Below, piece after piece: positions 47,793-63,083 of a stretch of DNA of 64,000 nt. Location: assembly GCF_006715005.1 (NCBI RefSeq), contig NZ_VFMJ01000001.1, positions 3,720,001 through 3,784,000 of the forward strand. The letters run 5' to 3'. Below the pieces are notes generated by a model. That model was not told where the DNA came from. It saw only the letters and a program-made list of their open reading frames with translations, and made no database searches. The position numbers and the translations under genes are program-made. Origin of the DNA: Serratia marcescens (GTDB taxonomy: Bacteria; Pseudomonadota; Gammaproteobacteria; Enterobacterales; Enterobacteriaceae). The first letter of the stretch is position 1. Each line of letters begins with the position of its first letter.

Positions 47793-51017
<3,225 letters not shown>

Positions 51018-51033
51018 TTTTTACTGCTCCTGA

Positions 51034-52182
51034 TTATTTGGCGTTAGAACGGTGAGTCTCAATCAGTTCGATAAAGTGATCGAACAGCGGCGCGGCGTCG
51101 TGCGGGCCTGGGCTGGCTTCCGGGTGCCCCTGGAAGCTGAACGCCGCCTTGTCGGTGCGGTGAATGCCCTGCACCGTGTGGTCGAACAGCGATTTGTGCG
51201 TCACGCGCAGGTTCGCCGGCAGGTTGTTTTCATCGACGGCGAAGCCGTGGTTCTGCGCGGTGATCATCACGGTGTTGTTGTCCAGATCCTTCACCGGGTG
51301 GTTGCCGCCGTGGTGGCCGAGCTTCATCTTCATGGTTTTCGCCCCGCTGGCCAGCGCCAGCAGCTGGTGGCCCAGGCAGATGCCGAACACCGGAATGTCG
51401 GTTTCAAGGAACTGTTTGATGGCGGCGATGGCGTAGTCGCACGGCTCCGGGTCGCCCGGGCCGTTGGACAGGAAGATGCCGTCCGGATTCATTTTCAGCA
51501 CCTCGTCGGCCGGGGTCTGTGCCGGCACCACGGTCAGGCGGCAGCCGCGATCCACCAGCATGCGCAGGATGTTGCGCTTGGCGCCGTAGTCGTAAGCCAC
51601 CACGTGGAACGGCAGCTCCGCGGCGGTTTTGGCTTCAGGCAGGTCGCCTTCAAGCGTCCAGCTGCCTTGCTGCCAGCTGTAGGCCTCTCGGGTGGTGACT
51701 TCTTTCGCCAGATCCATGCCCTTCAACCCCGGGAAACCTTGCGCCTTGGCCAGGGCCAGCGCGGCGTCCGGCGAGTCGGCGGCGATGATGCAGCCGTTCT
51801 GGGCGCCCTTCTCGCGCAGCAGGCGGGTTAATTTACGGGTATCGATATCGGCGATCGCCACGATGTTGTGACGCTTGAGGTAGTCGGACAGGCTTTCTTC
51901 GTTGCGGTAGTTGCTGGCGATCAGCGGGAGGTCACGAATGACGAGGCCTTGGGCGTGTACTGCGGAGGATTCTTCGTCGGAAGCATTGGTGCCGACATTG
52001 CCGATATGAGGATAAGTAAGAGTAACGATCTGGCGGGAATAGGAAGGATCAGTGAGGATTTCTTGATAACCGGTCATCGACGTATTGAAGACCACTTCCC
52101 CCACTGCCGTTCCCTCTGCCCCGATGGCCCGACCGTGGAATTGGGTTCCGTCTTCCAGAACCAATAGCGCTGACTTTATCAA
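51034..52182 (-). CDS. carA: Carbamoyl-phosphate synthase small subunit
   Basis: 382 residues. The class-I glutaminase domain has its nucleophile in [15 protein letters not shown] (the E. coli C269 equivalent) and the His/Glu pair in [13 protein letters not shown]. It supplies ammonia to CarB. The start is taken as TTG at 52182 (leader GGAGGATGTT), giving [21 protein letters not shown], as E. coli carA also starts with TTG. An ATG nine codons upstream would place the start in front of the Shine-Dalgarno. Confidence 0.97.
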
Positions 52183-52194
52183 AACATCCTCCGA

Positions 52195-52229
52195 GGAATA
52201 ATCAATCACAATATTTGCATATTAATTCA
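52195..52229 (-). promoter_or_regulatory. Tandem ARG boxes at the carAB promoter
   Basis: On the minus strand TGAATTAATATGCA (52216-52229) and TGATTGATTATTCC (52195-52208) are offset by 21 bases, close to the E. coli carAB P2 operator and its spacing. ArgR with arginine should repress the arginine-responsive promoter here. They lie directly upstream of the carA Shine-Dalgarno. Confidence 0.8.
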
Positions 52230-52652
52230 GATGTCACGATCTAAATCAATGCAAAAACCGTCCGCGAGGCCAATTTTTGGCAAATTGGGCGCATTTTAAT
52301 GATGAGTGCCCGGCTTGTCTACCCAAACTGCCGTTTTTTGTTTTATTTTTGCAGTTCTCGCCGCTCATGCGGCTTGAGCGACGATAAAAACACAGAAAAC
52401 CGGGGCTGGAAAACGGTTGCGAGGCTGAATGACGGAAAATGGCGCCAGAATAGACTCAAAAAGACCTTAAAATGGGATTTGGCGGATAAAAACGGGATGA
52501 TTAACAAGGTAAACATCAATAAATAACAGTAAATGAAACAAAATCACGCCAATGCTTCGTTTTTCATGTTAAAAAAAAGGACAATAAAATTATTGTCAGA
52601 TTATCATAGCATTATGATCAATACAACCACATCACGATGGTATGCAAATCAA
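52230..52652. other. dapB-carA intergenic regulatory region
   Basis: About 420 A/T-rich bases between the dapB stop and carA, both leftward. By analogy with E. coli it contains the distal pyrimidine-responsive carA promoter P1 with PepA/PurR/IHF sites; none could be assigned by eye. No gene is seen. A 75-codon frame at 52299-52526 has no family features. Confidence 0.55.
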
Positions 52653-53507
<855 letters not shown>

Positions 53508-53691
53508 TTAGGCTATCGATTCAGGGTAACCGCCCCGCTTCAGCGTCGCCAGAGGATTCATTTCATAATTAGAAAATTATGATATTCCTCCGTTCTCATC
53601 AGCGGCGCTGTCGTGAGATTAACATTCAACCGATTTGGCGGCCTGCGACGATTGTACATAATCATGCAGTTTGCATGGCAAAAAAATGCAG

Positions 53692-53715
53692 AAAAAAGGC
53701 GCCGAAAACGGCGCC
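53692..53715 (-). terminator. Terminator of the isonitrile operon
   Basis: GGCGCCG / CGGCGCC arms with an AAAA loop are followed on the minus strand by six Ts. They begin 22 bases after the glycosyltransferase stop, closing the isnA-isnB-GT transcript. Confidence 0.88.
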
Positions 53716-53737
53716 TGAGGAAGGGAGAACGGCGAGG

Positions 53738-55012
53738 TCAGGCGGTAATGGCGGCCACTTCGTTGGCAATCGCCGTCAGCGCGTCGTGGCGAGCATAGTC
53801 CTCACGCACCAGCGCCGCGCGTTGCCGATAGATCGGCTGTTGCAGAATACGCGTCGCCGCCGCCAGAATCTGTTCGGCGCTCGGCGTGCTGGTGTGCAGG
53901 CTGATGCCGCAGCCGGCGGCCACCACGCGCGCGGCCGCCTCCAGTTTGTCTTCGCCGGTGCCGGCGACGATCAGCGGCACGCCGCTGTCCAGCGCATAGT
54001 TGATCGAGCCATAACCGCCGTTGGTGATCAGCAGCGCCGCCTCCGGCAGCCAGCGTTCGAAGGAGATAAACTCCCGCACCCTGGCATTGCCCGGCAGTGC
54101 CTCCATCAGCCCTTCCGTCGCCCGCCCGCCGGTGGTGGCCAACACCCTCACCGGCAGATGCGCCAGCGCTTGCAGCGTCGGTACGATCAGCTGATGCAAA
54201 TCGACATTGGCCAGCGTGCCCTGAGACACGATCACCAGCGGTCGATCATCGTCCTTCTCCCACAGCGTCTCTTCCGCCGCCGGCTGGCCGCCGCTGCGCA
54301 GCGGGCCGACGAAGCGCACGCCGCTCGGCAGATCGTCGCGCTCATATTCCAGCGCCGTGGTGGCCAACTGCAGGAAACGCTCGCAGCCGCCGATCAGCGC
54401 GTCGGTAAACGGGCGATTCAGCGCCCGCCCGCCCGCCTGCACCAGTGCCGCATCAAAGCTTTGCTGCACCTCATCAAGCAACACTCGCGTCGCTTCATCC
54501 ACCAATTGCTCGCGGGTCAGCGCCCGCGGCAGCAGCGCCGGCGGGATACGCGGGCCATAAAAAATAGCATCGCGCGAAGAATACGACAGCGGTGTGACGC
54601 CGATACCGAAGACCGGCGGCCGCTCGGCGGACTGCAGCAGCGGCAGCACGCCGTAGAAGCAGTTCTCCACCATCAGCAGGTCGGTCTTTTCGGCGGCGAT
54701 GGCCGCACGCAGCTGCCGATCCAGCAACGGGATCGGTGCGGCGAAGAAATCCTTCAGCGCCAGCGCCATCTGCGCATTGCCCGGCGGCAGCGCGGCGCGC
54801 TCGGGGAAATGTTCCTCCAGGTGGCGATAATCGAAATCCACCTGCGCGTCGAACGGCACGAAGCTTGCCCCAACCGCCTCAGCGCGTTCGCGGAACAGCG
54901 CGCCGGTCATCACCCGCACCTGATGCCCTTGGGCAATCAGGTGGCGAGCGATGGCTAACATCGGGTAGACGTGCCCCGGAGTGGCGACCGCCGCCATCAG
55001 TATCCTTGCCAT
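53738..55012 (-). CDS. Family-1 (MGT/UGT-like) glycosyltransferase of the isonitrile cluster
   Basis: A 424-residue GT-B enzyme. The N-terminal acceptor domain starts MARILMAAVATPGHVYPMLAIARHL, with the usual GH near residue 14. The C-terminal nucleotide-sugar domain has VIVSQGTLAN (about 260) and the signature FISFERWLPEAALLITNGGYGSINYALDSGVPLIVAG, a UGT/macrolide-GT-type motif. There is no signal peptide. AAGGAG overlaps the isnB stop, 9 bases upstream, so it is translated from the same mRNA. By context it should glycosylate the aryl-isonitrile made by IsnA/IsnB; sugar and acceptor are inference. Confidence 0.85.
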   Translation of the reverse strand: MARILMAAVATPGHVYPMLAIARHLIAQGHQVRVMTGALFRERAEAVGASFVPFDAQVDFDYRHLEEHFPERAALPPGNAQMALALKDFFAAPIPLLDRQLRAAIAAEKTDLLMVENCFYGVLPLLQSAERPPVFGIGVTPLSYSSRDAIFYGPRIPPALLPRALTREQLVDEATRVLLDEVQQSFDAALVQAGGRALNRPFTDALIGGCERFLQLATTALEYERDDLPSGVRFVGPLRSGGQPAAEETLWEKDDDRPLVIVSQGTLANVDLHQLIVPTLQALAHLPVRVLATTGGRATEGLMEALPGNARVREFISFERWLPEAALLITNGGYGSINYALDSGVPLIVAGTGEDKLEAAARVVAAGCGISLHTSTPSAEQILAAATRILQQPIYRQRAALVREDYARHDALTAIANEVAAITA

Positions 55013-55021
55013 AATGCTCCT

Positions 55022-55885
55022 TTACGCTTCTGCGTTGGCCGGCTTCAGCGCCAGATTGGCGCACACCGGGTTGCTCTGGATATGCACGCGCTGCAAATGA
55101 CGCGCGGAACGGGCGGTAAAGCCCTCACGGCCGTGCAGCAGCGAGAAGTTGTCCGCCACCACTACGTCACCCTGTTGCCATTGGTGAGCATAATAGTGAC
55201 GCGGATCGTACAGATGCTGCTGCAGGGTGTGGTGGAACTGTTCCTGCTGCTGTTCAGGCACGCCGTGATATTCCAGCGCATGCTGGTTGAGGAATTTTTT
55301 CCCCTCCGTCGGCGGTTCATTGTAGCGCATGATTAACCCCCTGCCGTTCGGGTGCTGCACCACCAGCGGCGAACAGACTTCGCCACCGTAATGCACCACC
55401 TGTTTGATGCGGTAGGTGATAGAGACCGACAGCCACTGATCCAGCAGCGCTTCGTCCGCATTGGCCAGCAGCCGCGTGGTGTCGACGAAGGTGGTGCATC
55501 CGCCTTCGTCCTGAGAAGGTGCCGCTACGCAGTGGAACAGCTGGAACTCGGGGATGGTCGGCTTATACATGCCATCCCAATGCAGCGGGACGTAGCTGCT
55601 GTCGAAGATATGATCCTTGGCGTCAGGATGCTCCTTCACGTCCAGCACCGCACCGAACGGCCACATCATGATCTCGCCCCACTGTTCGGCATAGCGAGTC
55701 AGGACTTCCGCCTCGCTGAAACCGGAGTCGAATCCGCGCAGCACCAGCAAGTGGTGTTCCTGCGCCAGCGCTCGCAGCGCCGCCACCGGCAGCTCGCCGA
55801 TCTTTTGCCCCGGATGCTGCGGCGTCAGGATCGCGCCGAACGGGGTATTCGGTTGGATGTGGCAATTAAGCGGTTGGTTGTTCAT
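55022..55885 (-). CDS. isnB: Fe(II)/2-oxoglutarate-dependent oxygenase, IsnB/PvcB family
   Basis: A 287-residue TauD/TfdA-fold oxygenase. The iron triad is visible as H102 and D104 in PLHWDGMYKP and H251 in NFSLLHGREGF; R262/R266 are suited to bind 2-oxoglutarate. PvcB/IsnB homologues convert the isonitrile amino acid made by PvcA/IsnA, often by oxidative decarboxylation to a vinyl isonitrile. The start at 55885 (MNNQPLNCHI) has AAGGAG upstream; an upstream in-frame start is less likely. It lies 95 bases after isnA and 9 bases before the glycosyltransferase. Confidence 0.88.
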   Translation of the reverse strand: MNNQPLNCHIQPNTPFGAILTPQHPGQKIGELPVAALRALAQEHHLLVLRGFDSGFSEAEVLTRYAEQWGEIMMWPFGAVLDVKEHPDAKDHIFDSSYVPLHWDGMYKPTIPEFQLFHCVAAPSQDEGGCTTFVDTTRLLANADEALLDQWLSVSITYRIKQVVHYGGEVCSPLVVQHPNGRGLIMRYNEPPTEGKKFLNQHALEYHGVPEQQQEQFHHTLQQHLYDPRHYYAHQWQQGDVVVADNFSLLHGREGFTARSARHLQRVHIQSNPVCANLALKPANAEA

Positions 55886-55980
55886 CGGTATTCTCCTTGC
55901 ATCGAATGTGCTGCTCACACGGCAACGTGCCGTCAAAAACGCGCCCGCCAGGATTTCGGGCGCAAAAGCTTGCAGCGGCC

Positions 55981-56946
55981 TTAGGCCATCTGCGGCTGCT
56001 CGATCAGGTAATGGCTCGGCGTGCCGCGAATCTCCACCAGTTCACCGTCCAGGCTCTGCGCGTCTTTACGCTTCATCAGCACGAACTGGCCGTTCACGTT
56101 GGCCGCCACGCCGTGCCACGGCGTCAGCCAGTCGTCTTTGGTCGGCATCATATGGATGCCCATCTTCAGGCTGTCGACCGGCTGCGGGTGAATCGACAGA
56201 CGGATCGCCGCCGGGAAGTGCTGCGCCAGCAGGTTGCCCCAGGCCCAGCTGCGCTGGATCACGCCGCAGGCACGCTGTTTGGCGTCTTTCTGCAGCGCGG
56301 CGTTGGAACCGCTGTAGCCCGGCAGCTGGCTGTCTTCATACAGGAAGCGCGTGATGGCGCGGTACAGCAAGAGACCCTGTTCGTCCTGCATCAGCTGTTG
56401 CTTGATCGCCTCTTCCGATTCGGCGTAGCCGTCCACCAACAGCCGGCGCAGCAGGTCGTAATCATCGGTATGCTCCGCCAGGCCTTTGACGTCGCCGAGG
56501 TTGAACACGCTCAGGTGCGTCGCGCCCACTTCATGCAGCAGGCTTTCAATCTCACGCTGATAGTGGTTGATCGCGTCGTCGCTGACGCGGATCAGATCGC
56601 CGAACACGTGGCCGTCGGAGCAGATAACGATATGCGCACCCGGCGGGTAATAGAGCTGAATACGTTGGCACAGCGAATTGAGGAAGATCAGCGACAGCCG
56701 CTCCGCCATATCCGGCACCGCGCCGATCACCTTGTTGGTGTTGGGTGACTTGGTCGGAAAGGCCGGCAGCACGAATTCGATACGCTGCTCGTTTTCAATG
56801 AATGCCCGAATGCGTGGCAACTGCACCTGAGTGACCCGCTGTTCTTCTTCGGCAATTGAGGTGTCGCCGCCGGGGAAACGGCGGCGGTATTGCAATAATT
56901 CACGTAGGATTTTTAACGCTATTTCATCTTTCTGAACGCTGTCCAC
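55981..56946 (-). CDS. isnA: Isocyanide (isonitrile) synthase, IsnA/PvcA/Dit1 family
   Basis: A 321-residue enzyme of the PvcA/DIT1 family that turns the amine of Tyr or Trp into an isonitrile using ribulose-5-phosphate. Family blocks are PAFPTKSPNTNKVIG (61-75), ICSDGHVFGDLI (108-119), RLSIHPQP (249-256) and LTPWHGVA (274-281). It starts with GTG at 56946 behind AGGAG at good spacing. It is the first gene of the leftward cluster and reads divergently from the LysR gene. Whether it uses Tyr or Trp cannot be decided by eye; the attached glycosyltransferase favours the Tyr-derived rhabduscin type. Confidence 0.9.
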   Translation of the reverse strand: MDSVQKDEIALKILRELLQYRRRFPGGDTSIAEEEQRVTQVQLPRIRAFIENEQRIEFVLPAFPTKSPNTNKVIGAVPDMAERLSLIFLNSLCQRIQLYYPPGAHIVICSDGHVFGDLIRVSDDAINHYQREIESLLHEVGATHLSVFNLGDVKGLAEHTDDYDLLRRLLVDGYAESEEAIKQQLMQDEQGLLLYRAITRFLYEDSQLPGYSGSNAALQKDAKQRACGVIQRSWAWGNLLAQHFPAAIRLSIHPQPVDSLKMGIHMMPTKDDWLTPWHGVAANVNGQFVLMKRKDAQSLDGELVEIRGTPSHYLIEQPQMA

Positions 56947-57065
56947 AATGTGCTCCTGTTGCGATGCGGCGCGGGTGTATTATTGAAAAGCGCAATAAGA
57001 TTTATCAAAAAGAGAAAAAACCTCTGCGAGATAATAATCAGCCCGGCGTTTATATGCTTCAGGCA

Positions 57066-57088
57066 ATATAGAAGAGATGGTGCTATAT
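57066..57088. promoter_or_regulatory. Dyad 1 in the isnA-lysR intergenic region
   Basis: ATATAG-N11-CTATAT, perfect six-base arms centred at 57077, lies between divergent isnA and the LysR gene. It is a candidate binding site for the adjacent regulator or part of a promoter; function is inferred from position and symmetry only. Confidence 0.45.
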
Positions 57089-57115
57089 TATTAGCCCGTA
57101 TAATTCACAATCTTG

Positions 57116-57132
57116 GTTAAGTTGTGCTTAAC
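57116..57132. promoter_or_regulatory. Dyad 2: candidate LysR-type T-N11-A box
   Basis: GTTAAG-TTGTG-CTTAAC is a perfect six-base inverted repeat that contains a T-N11-A core. It lies six bases before the LysR start codon, where a Shine-Dalgarno would be expected, and is centred 47 bases from dyad 1. It could be the regulator's autoregulatory site. Confidence 0.5.
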
Positions 57133-57137
57133 AAACT

Positions 57138-58064
57138 ATGAGCAATATTTTAAAACGCATGGCCATTTTCTCAAAAGTGGTCGATTGCGGCGCATTCAGC
57201 ATGGCGGCAAAAGAATTGGGCATGACGACATCGGCCGTCAGCCAACATATTCGCCAGTTGGAGGAACATCTGGGCATTCAATTACTGCTGCGATCGACGC
57301 GTTCATTGAGTCTGACCGAAGCCGGATTGTGCTTTTATGAAGATTGCCTGCTGATGATCCACGCCGCCGAAAGAGGCCAACAACGGATCGCCGCGCTGCG
57401 TGGCGAACTGGTCGGCGAACTGCGCGTCGCCACCTCGACCGAATTCGCCACCCACTATCTGGTGCCGGCGCTGCAGAGCTTCCTCGATGAACACCCGCAG
57501 CTTACGCTGCGACTGGAAATCCACGATGAGAAGATAGACCTCATCACGCAACGCATCGATCTGGCGATACGTGGCGGCGTGCTGGCCGACTCCAGCTACG
57601 TTTCCACGCGGCTGGCACGCTGCCGCGAAGTGTTGTGCGCCTCGCCGGCCTACCTGGCGCACCACGGCGTGCCGGATTCGCCGCAGGCGCTGACGCATCA
57701 CCACTGGGTGACCTTTACACCGCTCGGCAACCCGCAGTTTGTTCGTCTGATCCATCGCGACGGTGGTGAACACCGCATGCGCATGACCGGGCGCTTGTTC
57801 ACCAACAGCGGTATGGCGATGAAGGAACTGGCGCTGACCGGCAAAGGCATCATTCGCAATTTCTTCGCCAACGTTGAGCGTGAGTTGCGCAGCGGCGAGC
57901 TGATTGAAATATTGCCCGACTGGCGATTACCGGAAATTAATTGCTATGCCATAATGCCGCGCCGGGAGATCCAGCCATTAAAAGTCCGACGATTGCTGGA
58001 GCATATGAAGCTCTATTTAAAGGAGAAAGGATTAAACGCCGTAGAACATATTCGACAAGAATAA
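57138..58064 (+). CDS. LysR-family regulator adjacent to the isonitrile operon
   Basis: 308 residues with an N-terminal winged helix (MAIFSKVVDCGAFSMAAKELGMTTSAVSQHIRQLEEHLG, about 8-47) and a LysR substrate domain (about 90-300) of the CrgA/AphB-like subgroup, with LRVATSTEFATHYLVPAL and LITQRIDLAIRGG. It is divergent from isnA with 191 bases between the starts, the standard setting for a LysR activator of its neighbour. There is no clear Shine-Dalgarno before the ATG. The inducer is unknown. Confidence 0.88.
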   Translation: MSNILKRMAIFSKVVDCGAFSMAAKELGMTTSAVSQHIRQLEEHLGIQLLLRSTRSLSLTEAGLCFYEDCLLMIHAAERGQQRIAALRGELVGELRVATSTEFATHYLVPALQSFLDEHPQLTLRLEIHDEKIDLITQRIDLAIRGGVLADSSYVSTRLARCREVLCASPAYLAHHGVPDSPQALTHHHWVTFTPLGNPQFVRLIHRDGGEHRMRMTGRLFTNSGMAMKELALTGKGIIRNFFANVERELRSGELIEILPDWRLPEINCYAIMPRREIQPLKVRRLLEHMKLYLKEKGLNAVEHIRQE

Positions 58065-58289
58065 AATAAGAAACATCTGCAAGACCACTATTGTAATTAT
58101 TGTAATCACTTTACCAACACCAGGCCCTATTTAGATTGCAGCCTAATGATACTCCTCTTAATGACTTTTCTCCAGCCGATATAATTAATGATGCAGACTC
58201 TATTTCAAATACTCAGAATAAATTTGACTTTAGTTAGCAGAAAATTTGAATATGCCAGAATGTTATTTTTAACCCCGCACCGTATTCCC
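58065..58289. other. A+T-rich spacer after the LysR gene
   Basis: About 225 A/T-rich bases between the LysR gene and the ispH terminator. No gene, repeat or clear terminator for the LysR gene was recognised. It marks the right boundary of the isonitrile locus against the conserved ispH-ribF block. Confidence 0.5.
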
Positions 58290-58318
58290 AAAAAAAACGG
58301 GAAGCCTAAGCTCCCCGT
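58290..58318 (-). terminator. Terminator of the ribF-ileS-lspA-fkpB-ispH operon
   Basis: On the minus strand ACGGGGAG-CTTAGG-CTTCCCGT is followed by TTTTTTT. It has one G-A mismatch in an 8-bp stem and begins about 20 bases after the ispH stop. Confidence 0.82.
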
Positions 58319-58337
58319 TGTCATTCATTAACGCATA

Positions 58338-59291
58338 TCAGTCAATCTGGCGAACGTCCACGCGCAACTCTTTCGGCACTTCGAACACGATGTTCTCTTC
58401 ACGCCCGCTGATTTCATGCACGTCCAGGCCGCCCAGCGCTTTCAGGCGAGAGATCACCTCCTGCACCAGCACGTCCGGCGCTGAGGCACCGGCGGTAACG
58501 CCGATGTGGCGCGCCCCGCTCAGCCAACTCTCCTGAATATCCGCCGCCGAATCGATAAGATAAGCCGGTTTGCCGACGCGCTGCGCCAGTTCCGCCAGAC
58601 GGTTGGAGTTGGAGGAGTTTTTAGACCCCACCACCAGCACCACGTCCGCATCGCCGGCCAGGTTGCGCACCGCTTCCTGACGGTTGGTGGTAGCGTAGCA
58701 AATGTCATCCTTGCGCGGGCCGATAATGCTCGGGAAACGCTGGCGCAGAGCGTCGATCACGTCCGAGGTATCATCAACCGACAGCGTGGTCTGCGTCATG
58801 AAGCACAGGTTGCTTTCATCTTTCACCTGCAGCTTCCACACGTCTTCCGGCGACTCGACCAGGTACATGCCGCCCTGCGGGTTGCTGTACTGGCCCATGG
58901 TGCCTTCCACCTCCGGATGCCCGGCGTGACCGATCAGAATCGCTTCGGTGCCGCGGCGGCTGGCGCGCGCCACTTCCATATGCACCTTGGTCACCAGCGG
59001 GCAAGTGGCGTCGAACAGCATGGTCAGATCGCGCGCCTTGGCTTCGGCACGCACCGCCTGAGAAACGCCGTGCGCCGAGAAGATCAGGATAGAACCGTCC
59101 GGCACTTCGGCGATCTCTTCGATAAACACCGCGCCGCGCTCACGCAGGCTGTCGACCACGTAGCGGTTGTGCACCACTTCATGCCGCACGTAGATCGGTG
59201 CGCCATACAGTTCCAGCGCGCGTTCCACGATGCTGATCGCACGATCAACCCCGGCGCAGAAGCCGCGCGGGTTAGCCAGCAATATTTGCAT
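58338..59291 (-). CDS. ispH: 4-hydroxy-3-methylbut-2-enyl diphosphate reductase
   Basis: 317 residues (316 in E. coli). The three [4Fe-4S] cysteines are C12 (NPRGFCAGV), C97 (DATCPLV) and one near 198 ([11 protein letters not shown]), with HxVVHN, the catalytic-glutamate region [12 protein letters not shown] and SSNSNRL. It makes IPP/DMAPP in the last MEP-pathway step. The one-residue shift after C12 comes from an extra leucine (TMLFDATC). It overlaps fkpB by 20 bases. Confidence 0.98.
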
Positions 59292-59742
59292 GCGTCTCCT
59301 CCTGCTGCGGATCGATCTCCAGCACTTCGATATCGAAGGTCACCGGATGGCCCGCCAGCGGATGGTTGAAATCGACGGTGATCGAATCTTCCGCCACCGC
59401 GCGCACCACGCCCGGCATTTCACTGCCGTCGATGGCGGTAAACAGCATGATGGTGCCCACGTCCGGTACGCCGGTTTCCGCAAAGTCGCGGCGCGAGAAG
59501 AACTGGACCAGATCCGGGTTCTCCGCGCCGAACGCCGCTTCCGGCTGCAGGGTAAAGGCGCATTTGTCGCCCGCGCGCAGGCCGAGCAGCTGCGCCTCCA
59601 GCGGCGCCGACAGGCTACCGTCACCCAGACGGAACAGCGCCGGTTTGCCGCTGCTGCGGGTAGATTCGGCGGTCGAACCGTCTTCCAGTTTCAGCGTAAA
59701 GTGAACCAGCACCGCGCTGTCACTGATAATCTGAGCCGTCAT
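59272..59742 (-). CDS. fkpB: FKBP-type peptidyl-prolyl isomerase FkpB (SlpA)
   Basis: A 156-residue SlyD-like FKBP with the FKBP core ([31 protein letters not shown]) and an inserted IF chaperone domain (about 70-125). The ending [22 protein letters not shown] is typical. It assists protein folding in the cytoplasm. The ATG at 59742 has AAGGTGAG upstream; an overlapping in-frame GTG at 59751 would add three residues. It sits between lspA and ispH as in E. coli. Confidence 0.96.
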
Positions 59743-59743
59743 G

Positions 59744-60253
59744 TTACTCACCTTTACTCTTTGCGCCTTTGTTCGCCGGCGACAGGAAACCTTCCAGCAC
59801 GATCATCGCCGCACCCACGCAGATAAAGCTGTCCGCCAGATTGAAGGTCGGGTAGTGCCAGTCACCGACGTAGAAGTCGATGAAATCGACTACGAAACCG
59901 TGCCACAGGCGATCGAACAGATTGCCCAACGCCCCGCCGATGATGAAGGCGTAGGCGATGTTGTTCAACTTCTGCTGCGCCGCACTGCGGTACATCATCA
60001 CCAGCAGCACCGCGACGATGGCGATGGCGATGCCGGCGAAGAACCAGCGCTGCCAACCGCCGTGATCGGCCAGGAAGCTGAACGCAGCGCCGTAATTGCG
60101 CGCGTAAAACAGGTTGAACGACGGGATCAACGGCTGGGACTGGCCCAGCGTAAAGTTAGCGAGGATCCACTGCTTGCTGCCGAAATCCAGCGCCAGCACC
60201 GCCACCACAACCCACAGCCAACGCAGGCCGGTCGAACAAATTGGTTTACTCAT
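59744..60253 (-). CDS. lspA: Prolipoprotein signal peptidase II
   Basis: A 169-residue inner-membrane aspartyl protease with four membrane segments. The catalytic pair is D123 (VVDFIDF) and D141 ([10 protein letters not shown]), with conserved [16 protein letters not shown] and [11 protein letters not shown]. It removes lipoprotein signal peptides after lipidation and is the globomycin target. The start at 60253 gives [14 protein letters not shown], as in E. coli, 13 bases after the ileS stop. Confidence 0.97.
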
Positions 60254-60266
60254 CAGGCGCGAATTC

Positions 60267-63083
<2,817 letters not shown>

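Follow-up and report, generated by a model that had tools for sequence, protein, structure and literature searches.

A three-gene operon predicted to make an isonitrile lies in a 64,000-nucleotide stretch of the Serratia marcescens genome (NZ_VFMJ01000001.1, positions 3,720,001 to 3,784,000; hereafter the window). The operon, isnA–isnB–GT (GT, glycosyltransferase), runs leftward, and the gene of a LysR-type regulator diverges from it (Table 1). As a first-pass annotation of the same sequence had described, all four genes are intact, and profile searches confirm that the locus is flanked by dapB on the left and ispH on the right. By their coordinates, GT starts 9 bases past the isnB stop codon and isnB starts 95 bases past that of isnA. 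The annotation's wording of an "E. coli-like" backbone was too loose, since the backbone is that of Serratia: positions 50001–61500 are 94–95% identical to S. nevei, S. bockelmannii, S. marcescens MSU97 and S. ureilytica, and 81–85% identical to seven other named Serratia loci (11 of the 12 named loci were compared, with L033 left out and L035 aligned over 7.8 kb only).

Table 1. Genes and sequence features of the isonitrile locus (window coordinates)
Feature	Position	Strand	Remarks
isnA (pvcA-type L-tyrosine isonitrile synthase)	55981..56946	-	GTG start, 321 aa
isnB (Fe(II)/2-oxoglutarate desaturase, PIsnB type)	55022..55885	-	287 aa; open frame reaches 55936 from TTG
GT1-type glycosyltransferase (GT)	53738..55012	-	424 aa
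Terminator-like hairpin and T tail after GT	53692..53716	-	stem 53716-53697, 8 pairs (7 G-C), then TTTTT
Divergent LysR-type regulator	57138..58064	+	308 aa; PF00126 (HTH_1), PF03466 (LysR_substrate)
17-bp perfect palindrome GTTAAG-N5-CTTAAC, probable LysR binding site	57116..57132	.	arms conserved; rare in window
isnA-lysR intergenic promoter region	56947..57137	.	alignment of Serratia sequences

IsnA scores 282 bits against PF05141 and 647 bits against the NCBIfam equivalog NF045653 (TyIsonSynPvcA, L-tyrosine isonitrile synthase), above the cut-off of 600, and its solved relatives are 9dhm, 9dh4 and 3e59. IsnB belongs to the TauD/TfdA family (PF02668), and its best solved relative is PIsnB (7tcl, 396.7 bits) rather than PvcB (3eat, 281.8 bits). 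Alignment places in IsnB the iron triad H102/D104/H251, the substrate-binding residues R266 and W75, and K108 and N189, all numbered from the ATG at 55885. This ATG is the likelier start because the longer open reading frame, which opens with a TTG, is matched from its residue 15 or 16 onward in 22 of the 26 Serratia genomes that carry the cluster. According to PMC9467999, from which the roles of the triad and of the arginine and tryptophan are taken, enzymes forming a vinyl isonitrile have K/R at 107 and N/H at 188 (PIsnB numbering), whereas those forming an isocyanoacrylate have Leu and Cys, and the K/N rule was confirmed on one previously uncharacterised Aeromonas enzyme. The window's IsnB has the full PIsnB-type set (triad, Arg/Trp, K108 and N189) and lacks the PvcB-type Leu/Cys pair, which in the same alignment is found in PvcB (3eat) and in Pseudomonas mangiferae (L074). 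Every other row of this alignment, which covers loci with a long IsnB match (and so leaves out loci such as L043, L081 and L083), has K or R first and N second, except the frameshifted L077 (K/T). The IsnA and IsnB trees are midpoint-rooted and contain long, unsure branches (Phaseolibacter, P. mangiferae).

The GT consists of a GT28 N-terminal domain (PF03033) and an EryCIII-like C-terminal domain (PF06722), and its H14 is invariant in all 20 aligned rows. It is 65–68% identical to the Pectobacterium GT, 54–57% to the GT that stands beside isnB in Xenorhabdus, as it does in Serratia, and 56–64% to tandem GTs that are unlinked in Photorhabdus and were found in all four Photorhabdus genomes searched. 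In the GT tree, Serratia and Pectobacterium form one clade (99/97). As judged from these comparisons, the GT is an ortholog of the GTs for rhabduscin, a vinyl-isonitrile glycoside, in Xenorhabdus and Photorhabdus. A strong contrast between the acceptor and donor halves of the GT was considered and rejected, the identities to seven Xenorhabdus rows being similar for the N-terminal (56–60%) and C-terminal (54–55%) domains. The first-pass annotation had named a PvcA/Dit1-type isocyanide synthase, an Fe(II)/2-oxoglutarate oxygenase with an intact triad and a family-1 glycosyltransferase, and had proposed placing all three by profile and homology searches; run here, these searches return a tyrosine isonitrile synthase, a PIsnB-type oxygenase and a rhabduscin-GT ortholog, in agreement with each class.

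Collectively, the IsnA score above its cut-off, the IsnB residues, and the orthology and tree of the GT support the rhabduscin-like class of product proposed earlier, and we consider it likely that the operon makes an O-glycosylated vinyl isonitrile from L-tyrosine. The order of reactions and the product are modelled on characterised relatives. IsnA would convert L-tyrosine to tyrosine isonitrile, the amino group becoming the isonitrile; in the IsnA family the isonitrile carbon comes from ribulose-5-phosphate. IsnB would remove the benzylic hydrogen and CO2 to yield 4-(2-isocyanovinyl)phenol, whose phenol the GT would cap with a sugar to form the O-glycoside. The rhabduscin cluster of Xenorhabdus has the same three genes in the same order, an order also found in Pectobacterium; its IsnA and IsnB are 69–72% and 52–57% identical to those of the window, and both IsnB proteins carry vinyl-type residues. 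The divergent lysR and the location between dapB and ispH are found in Serratia loci only, among the loci compared. A further member of the predicted class is byelyankacin from Enterobacter sp. B20, an isocyanovinyl phenyl alpha-L-rhamnopyranoside (PMC10420840).

The first-pass annotation suggested that the exact product may be new. The cluster is not undescribed, as a pvc cluster of S. marcescens is already in print (PMC5109203). Its first gene, pvcA (sma0021), is reported to be bound by phosphorylated RssB, the cluster is required for normal swarming and biofilm, and the product is assigned as 2-isocyano-6,7-dihydroxycoumarin. Because each of the 26 cluster-bearing genomes has a single PvcA homologue, the published cluster must be the window locus, and we infer that sma0021 is the window's isnA. 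Homologues of isnAB have also been identified in S. marcescens (PMC6386379), and the published compound is mentioned in PMC7027876; no second product claim for the Serratia locus was seen in the open-licence literature, judged mostly from listings. Hence the Serratia operon itself is known; what is new is that the published product fits the gene content poorly and that the GT differs at a sugar-site residue.

Several published observations weigh against a glycosylated vinyl isonitrile. The strongest is that the coumarin was identified by liquid chromatography–mass spectrometry (LC-MS) and nuclear magnetic resonance (NMR) from S. marcescens overexpressing the cluster, and was absent from a deletion mutant carrying the vector (PMC5109203). 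The K/N rule is a correlate, and the Aeromonas enzyme kept its product when K113L or N194C was introduced singly (PMC9467999). In addition, supernatant of S. entomophila Mor4.1, the one Serratia strain tested in PMC6386379, failed to inhibit phenoloxidase of insects, no check having been made that this strain carries the operon. The direct chemistry with its deletion control, together with the binding of phosphorylated RssB to the pvcA promoter, would suit a cluster that makes 2-isocyano-6,7-dihydroxycoumarin (paerucumarin) as an iron chelator feeding back on RssAB, with the GT as an accessory. Nevertheless, we regard this reading as improbable. The Pseudomonas pvc cluster, with homologous PvcA (436 bits to 3e59) and PvcB (281.8 bits to 3eat), differs from the window in what it combines: the window has no pvcC neighbour and no Leu/Cys residues, its IsnB is of the PIsnB rather than the PvcB type, and its conserved third gene encodes a glycosyltransferase. 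The reported m/z of 204.03023 under negative-ion electrospray ionisation corresponds to the anion C10H6NO4, whereas our mass calculation gives 202.0146 for the [M-H]- ion of C10H5NO4, a mismatch that may be a slip of notation. The main text of PMC5109203 contains neither "pvcC" nor "glycosyl".

A hydroxylase of the PvcC type was sought with a protein of P. mangiferae (L074), where an HpaB-family gene (506 bits, under the HpaB cut-off) adjoins pvcB and, from its place and family, is taken as the putative pvcC. This query finds a single match at 44–46% identity in each of 26 Serratia genomes and none in the other four. In the window's genome, the only one whose match was classified (the other 25 are HpaB-like), the match lies 84 kb away and is HpaB itself (TIGR02310, 1026 bits; cut-off 885), with hpaC, hpaX and hpaE nearby. 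With this query, no PvcC hydroxylase besides the catabolic hpaB was found in the window's genome, and a PvcC encoded elsewhere in it was thereby rejected. HpaB and HpaC could in principle hydroxylate the ring, and 25 further Serratia genomes have a similar HpaB-like match. The open reading frames of the operon comprise three genes only, no search aimed at PvcD having been made. A vinyl-type IsnB, no PvcC besides HpaB and an orthologous GT together point to a glycoside of 4-(2-isocyanovinyl)phenol and not to a dihydroxycoumarin.

In GT1 enzymes, an acidic residue followed by Gln (the D/E-Q motif) contacts the sugar. D355 of the GT aligns gaplessly with Asp of CalG2 and 10zg and with Glu of YjiC, which, given this motif, would place it in the sugar pocket. 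At position 355, all 13 Serratia sequences (window included) and all seven Pectobacterium-type sequences, one of them from another genome grouping with Pectobacterium, have Asp. The 19 distinct Xenorhabdus sequences all have Gly, and of 21 Photorhabdus rows, which come from four genomes and include several duplicates of the same gene, 17 have Gly and four have Ser. L077 was left out of this count because its matches are fragmented, and other Xenorhabdus stand in for Xenorhabdus nematophila, whose GT (rhabduscin proven) is outside the comparison set. A site without the acid would fit a 4-amido sugar that lacks the 4-hydroxyl, and one with the acid a free 4-hydroxyl, so that D355 weakly favours the latter over the amido sugar of rhabduscin, and the Serratia sugar may differ. 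As the difference between Asp and Gly/Ser is a single split on the GT tree, it is a lead and not a test. Of the "amido/O-glycosyl" product suggested earlier, the O-glycoside is thus supported, while the amido sugar is made uncertain by position 355. A third tandem GT copy with Ser for Gly at this position was observed in genomes of Photorhabdus australis and P. asymbiotica (L094, L096, L106, L107), in agreement with a remark in PMC4683029 that P. asymbiotica may make a different rhabduscin.

Within the vinyl-isonitrile glycoside, the identity of the sugar divides the possibilities. The donor presumed for rhabduscin in Xenorhabdus and Photorhabdus is the dTDP sugar of enterobacterial common antigen. 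That the Serratia GT uses the same donor and makes rhabduscin itself is quite possible: the GTs are orthologous at 54–64% identity, and wecE of the common-antigen sugar pathway scores over its cut-off in 28 of 30 Serratia genomes, every one of the 26 cluster-bearing genomes among them, which makes the donor available throughout. Against it stands Asp355, shared with the Pectobacterium-type sequences; the GT lacks the sugar-site residue of Xenorhabdus and Photorhabdus that our own, unpublished definition of a rhabduscin cluster includes. An alpha-L-rhamnoside of the byelyankacin type, known from Enterobacter sp. B20 (PMC10420840), would accommodate Asp355 through its free 4-hydroxyl, and the window's genome does have rmlD of the rhamnose pathway (337.5 bits; cut-off 224.05). 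However, rmlD passes the cut-off in only 14 of the 26 cluster-bearing genomes as against 26 of 26 for wecE, and 12 have the GT but no such rmlD; rhamnose is therefore hardly the general donor, and the rhamnoside appears unlikely. We tentatively suggest, while considering it doubtful, that Serratia and Pectobacterium make an undescribed isocyanovinylphenol glycoside with a sugar other than that of rhabduscin, and that the published dihydroxycoumarin assignment is wrong.

The deletion phenotype reported in PMC5109203 holds regardless of the product. In X. nematophila, inhibition of Spodoptera phenoloxidase in an assay depended on the rhabduscin cluster, but virulence in two moths did not (PMC6386379), and the aglycone from Photorhabdus is an inhibitor of the alternative pathway of human complement (PMC4683029); by analogy, the compound made by Serratia might play a part in surface behaviour or immunity. 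If the product is a glycosylated vinyl isonitrile, the compound class that blocks phenoloxidase (PMC6386379), and whose aglycone blocks alternative complement (PMC4683029), may be a standing trait of the genus Serratia, and the published product behind the iron-sensing and swarming circuit of S. marcescens would need re-determination. Should the undescribed glycoside be correct, it is a glycosylated vinyl isonitrile that would underlie the effects on RssAB, swarming and biofilm. The chief value of the analysis is that the published product assignment can now be tested directly.

The operon is found throughout the genus among Serratia with larger genomes, whereas elsewhere its occurrence is sporadic. 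isnA occurs once per genome in 26 of the 30 Serratia genomes, and the four without it measure 1.5–3.6 Mb versus 4.9–5.9 Mb for the others. The same 26 genomes carry isnB and, at 77–100% identity, the GT (a weak 45-residue match of about 23 bits, present in all 30, was not counted), and by coordinates the three genes are adjacent in every one of the 26. Sampling of the wider family gave IsnA in 10 of 198 genomes and 7 of 154 genera; Serratia accounts for three of the ten genomes. In 10 of the 12 named Serratia loci the operon is flanked by ispH and dapB, and this shared place together with its presence in 26 of 30 genomes led us to reject a recent gene island; an unusual insertion is likewise not supported, given that distribution. 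At the two exceptions, L033 and L035, dapB is missing and GT is followed by other genes, and the L033 contig starts after ispH. By eye, the genes 3′ of GT in S. quinivorans and S. liquefaciens (L035, 10239–14244; L033, 4594–9282) resemble an aldolase, a dehydratase and a transporter; there may be a hot spot for insertions on the dapB side of the operon. Decay of the operon was rejected as well, given open reading frames and low ratios of nonsynonymous to synonymous substitution (dN/dS) against three relatives; against S. plymuthica, dN/dS is 0.06 for isnA, isnB and lysR, 0.15 for GT, 0.09 for dapB and 0.05 for ispH.

The lysR gene occupies the same place in all 12 named Serratia loci. The palindrome of the intergenic region contains T-N11-A, ends 5 bases before the lysR start and precedes isnA by about 170 bases. 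Both arms are fully conserved across the 13 Serratia sequences aligned, that of the window among them, and the palindrome has one match in the window with at most one mismatch, versus 0.03 expected. From these features the LysR protein is predicted to bind at the palindrome, through which it would probably control the divergent promoter. A promoter scan found six sites versus 2.2 expected, which is not strong enough to assign a start point. The target of phosphorylated RssB, mapped in another strain to −349 to +38 of pvcA (PMC5109203), would by projection cover about 56909–57295 and overlap the palindrome; the main text of that paper does not mention a LysR regulator. As to the terminator of its own that the first-pass annotation gave the operon, a hairpin with a T tail does follow the GT stop codon, but a scan of the window found five terminator-like sites, no excess over shuffled sequence (mean 4.8), so that the hairpin is backed only by its place and G+C content. 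Where ispH and lysR converge, the space between them has a second terminator-like hairpin (58296–58319; 10 pairs, 6 G-C).

Deviating loci were seen outside Serratia. In two Pectobacterium loci (L043 and L083), isnA is kept without adjoining isnB or GT, and neither genome has a GT match above 24 bits; this is a partial loss of the pathway, no search for isnB elsewhere in those genomes having been made. At L077 (Pectobacterium sp. PL152), the isnA and GT matches are fragmented and the isnB match is short, perhaps through sequencing error. A 3.1-Mb genome (G175; L112, 6668–8622) has isnA and isnB at 69% identity and no GT within the 14 kb examined. Another genome (G125; L115, 4861–8405) carries two divergent PvcA homologues (37% and 29%) together with a distant IsnB (29%), and this is probably a different isonitrile cluster.

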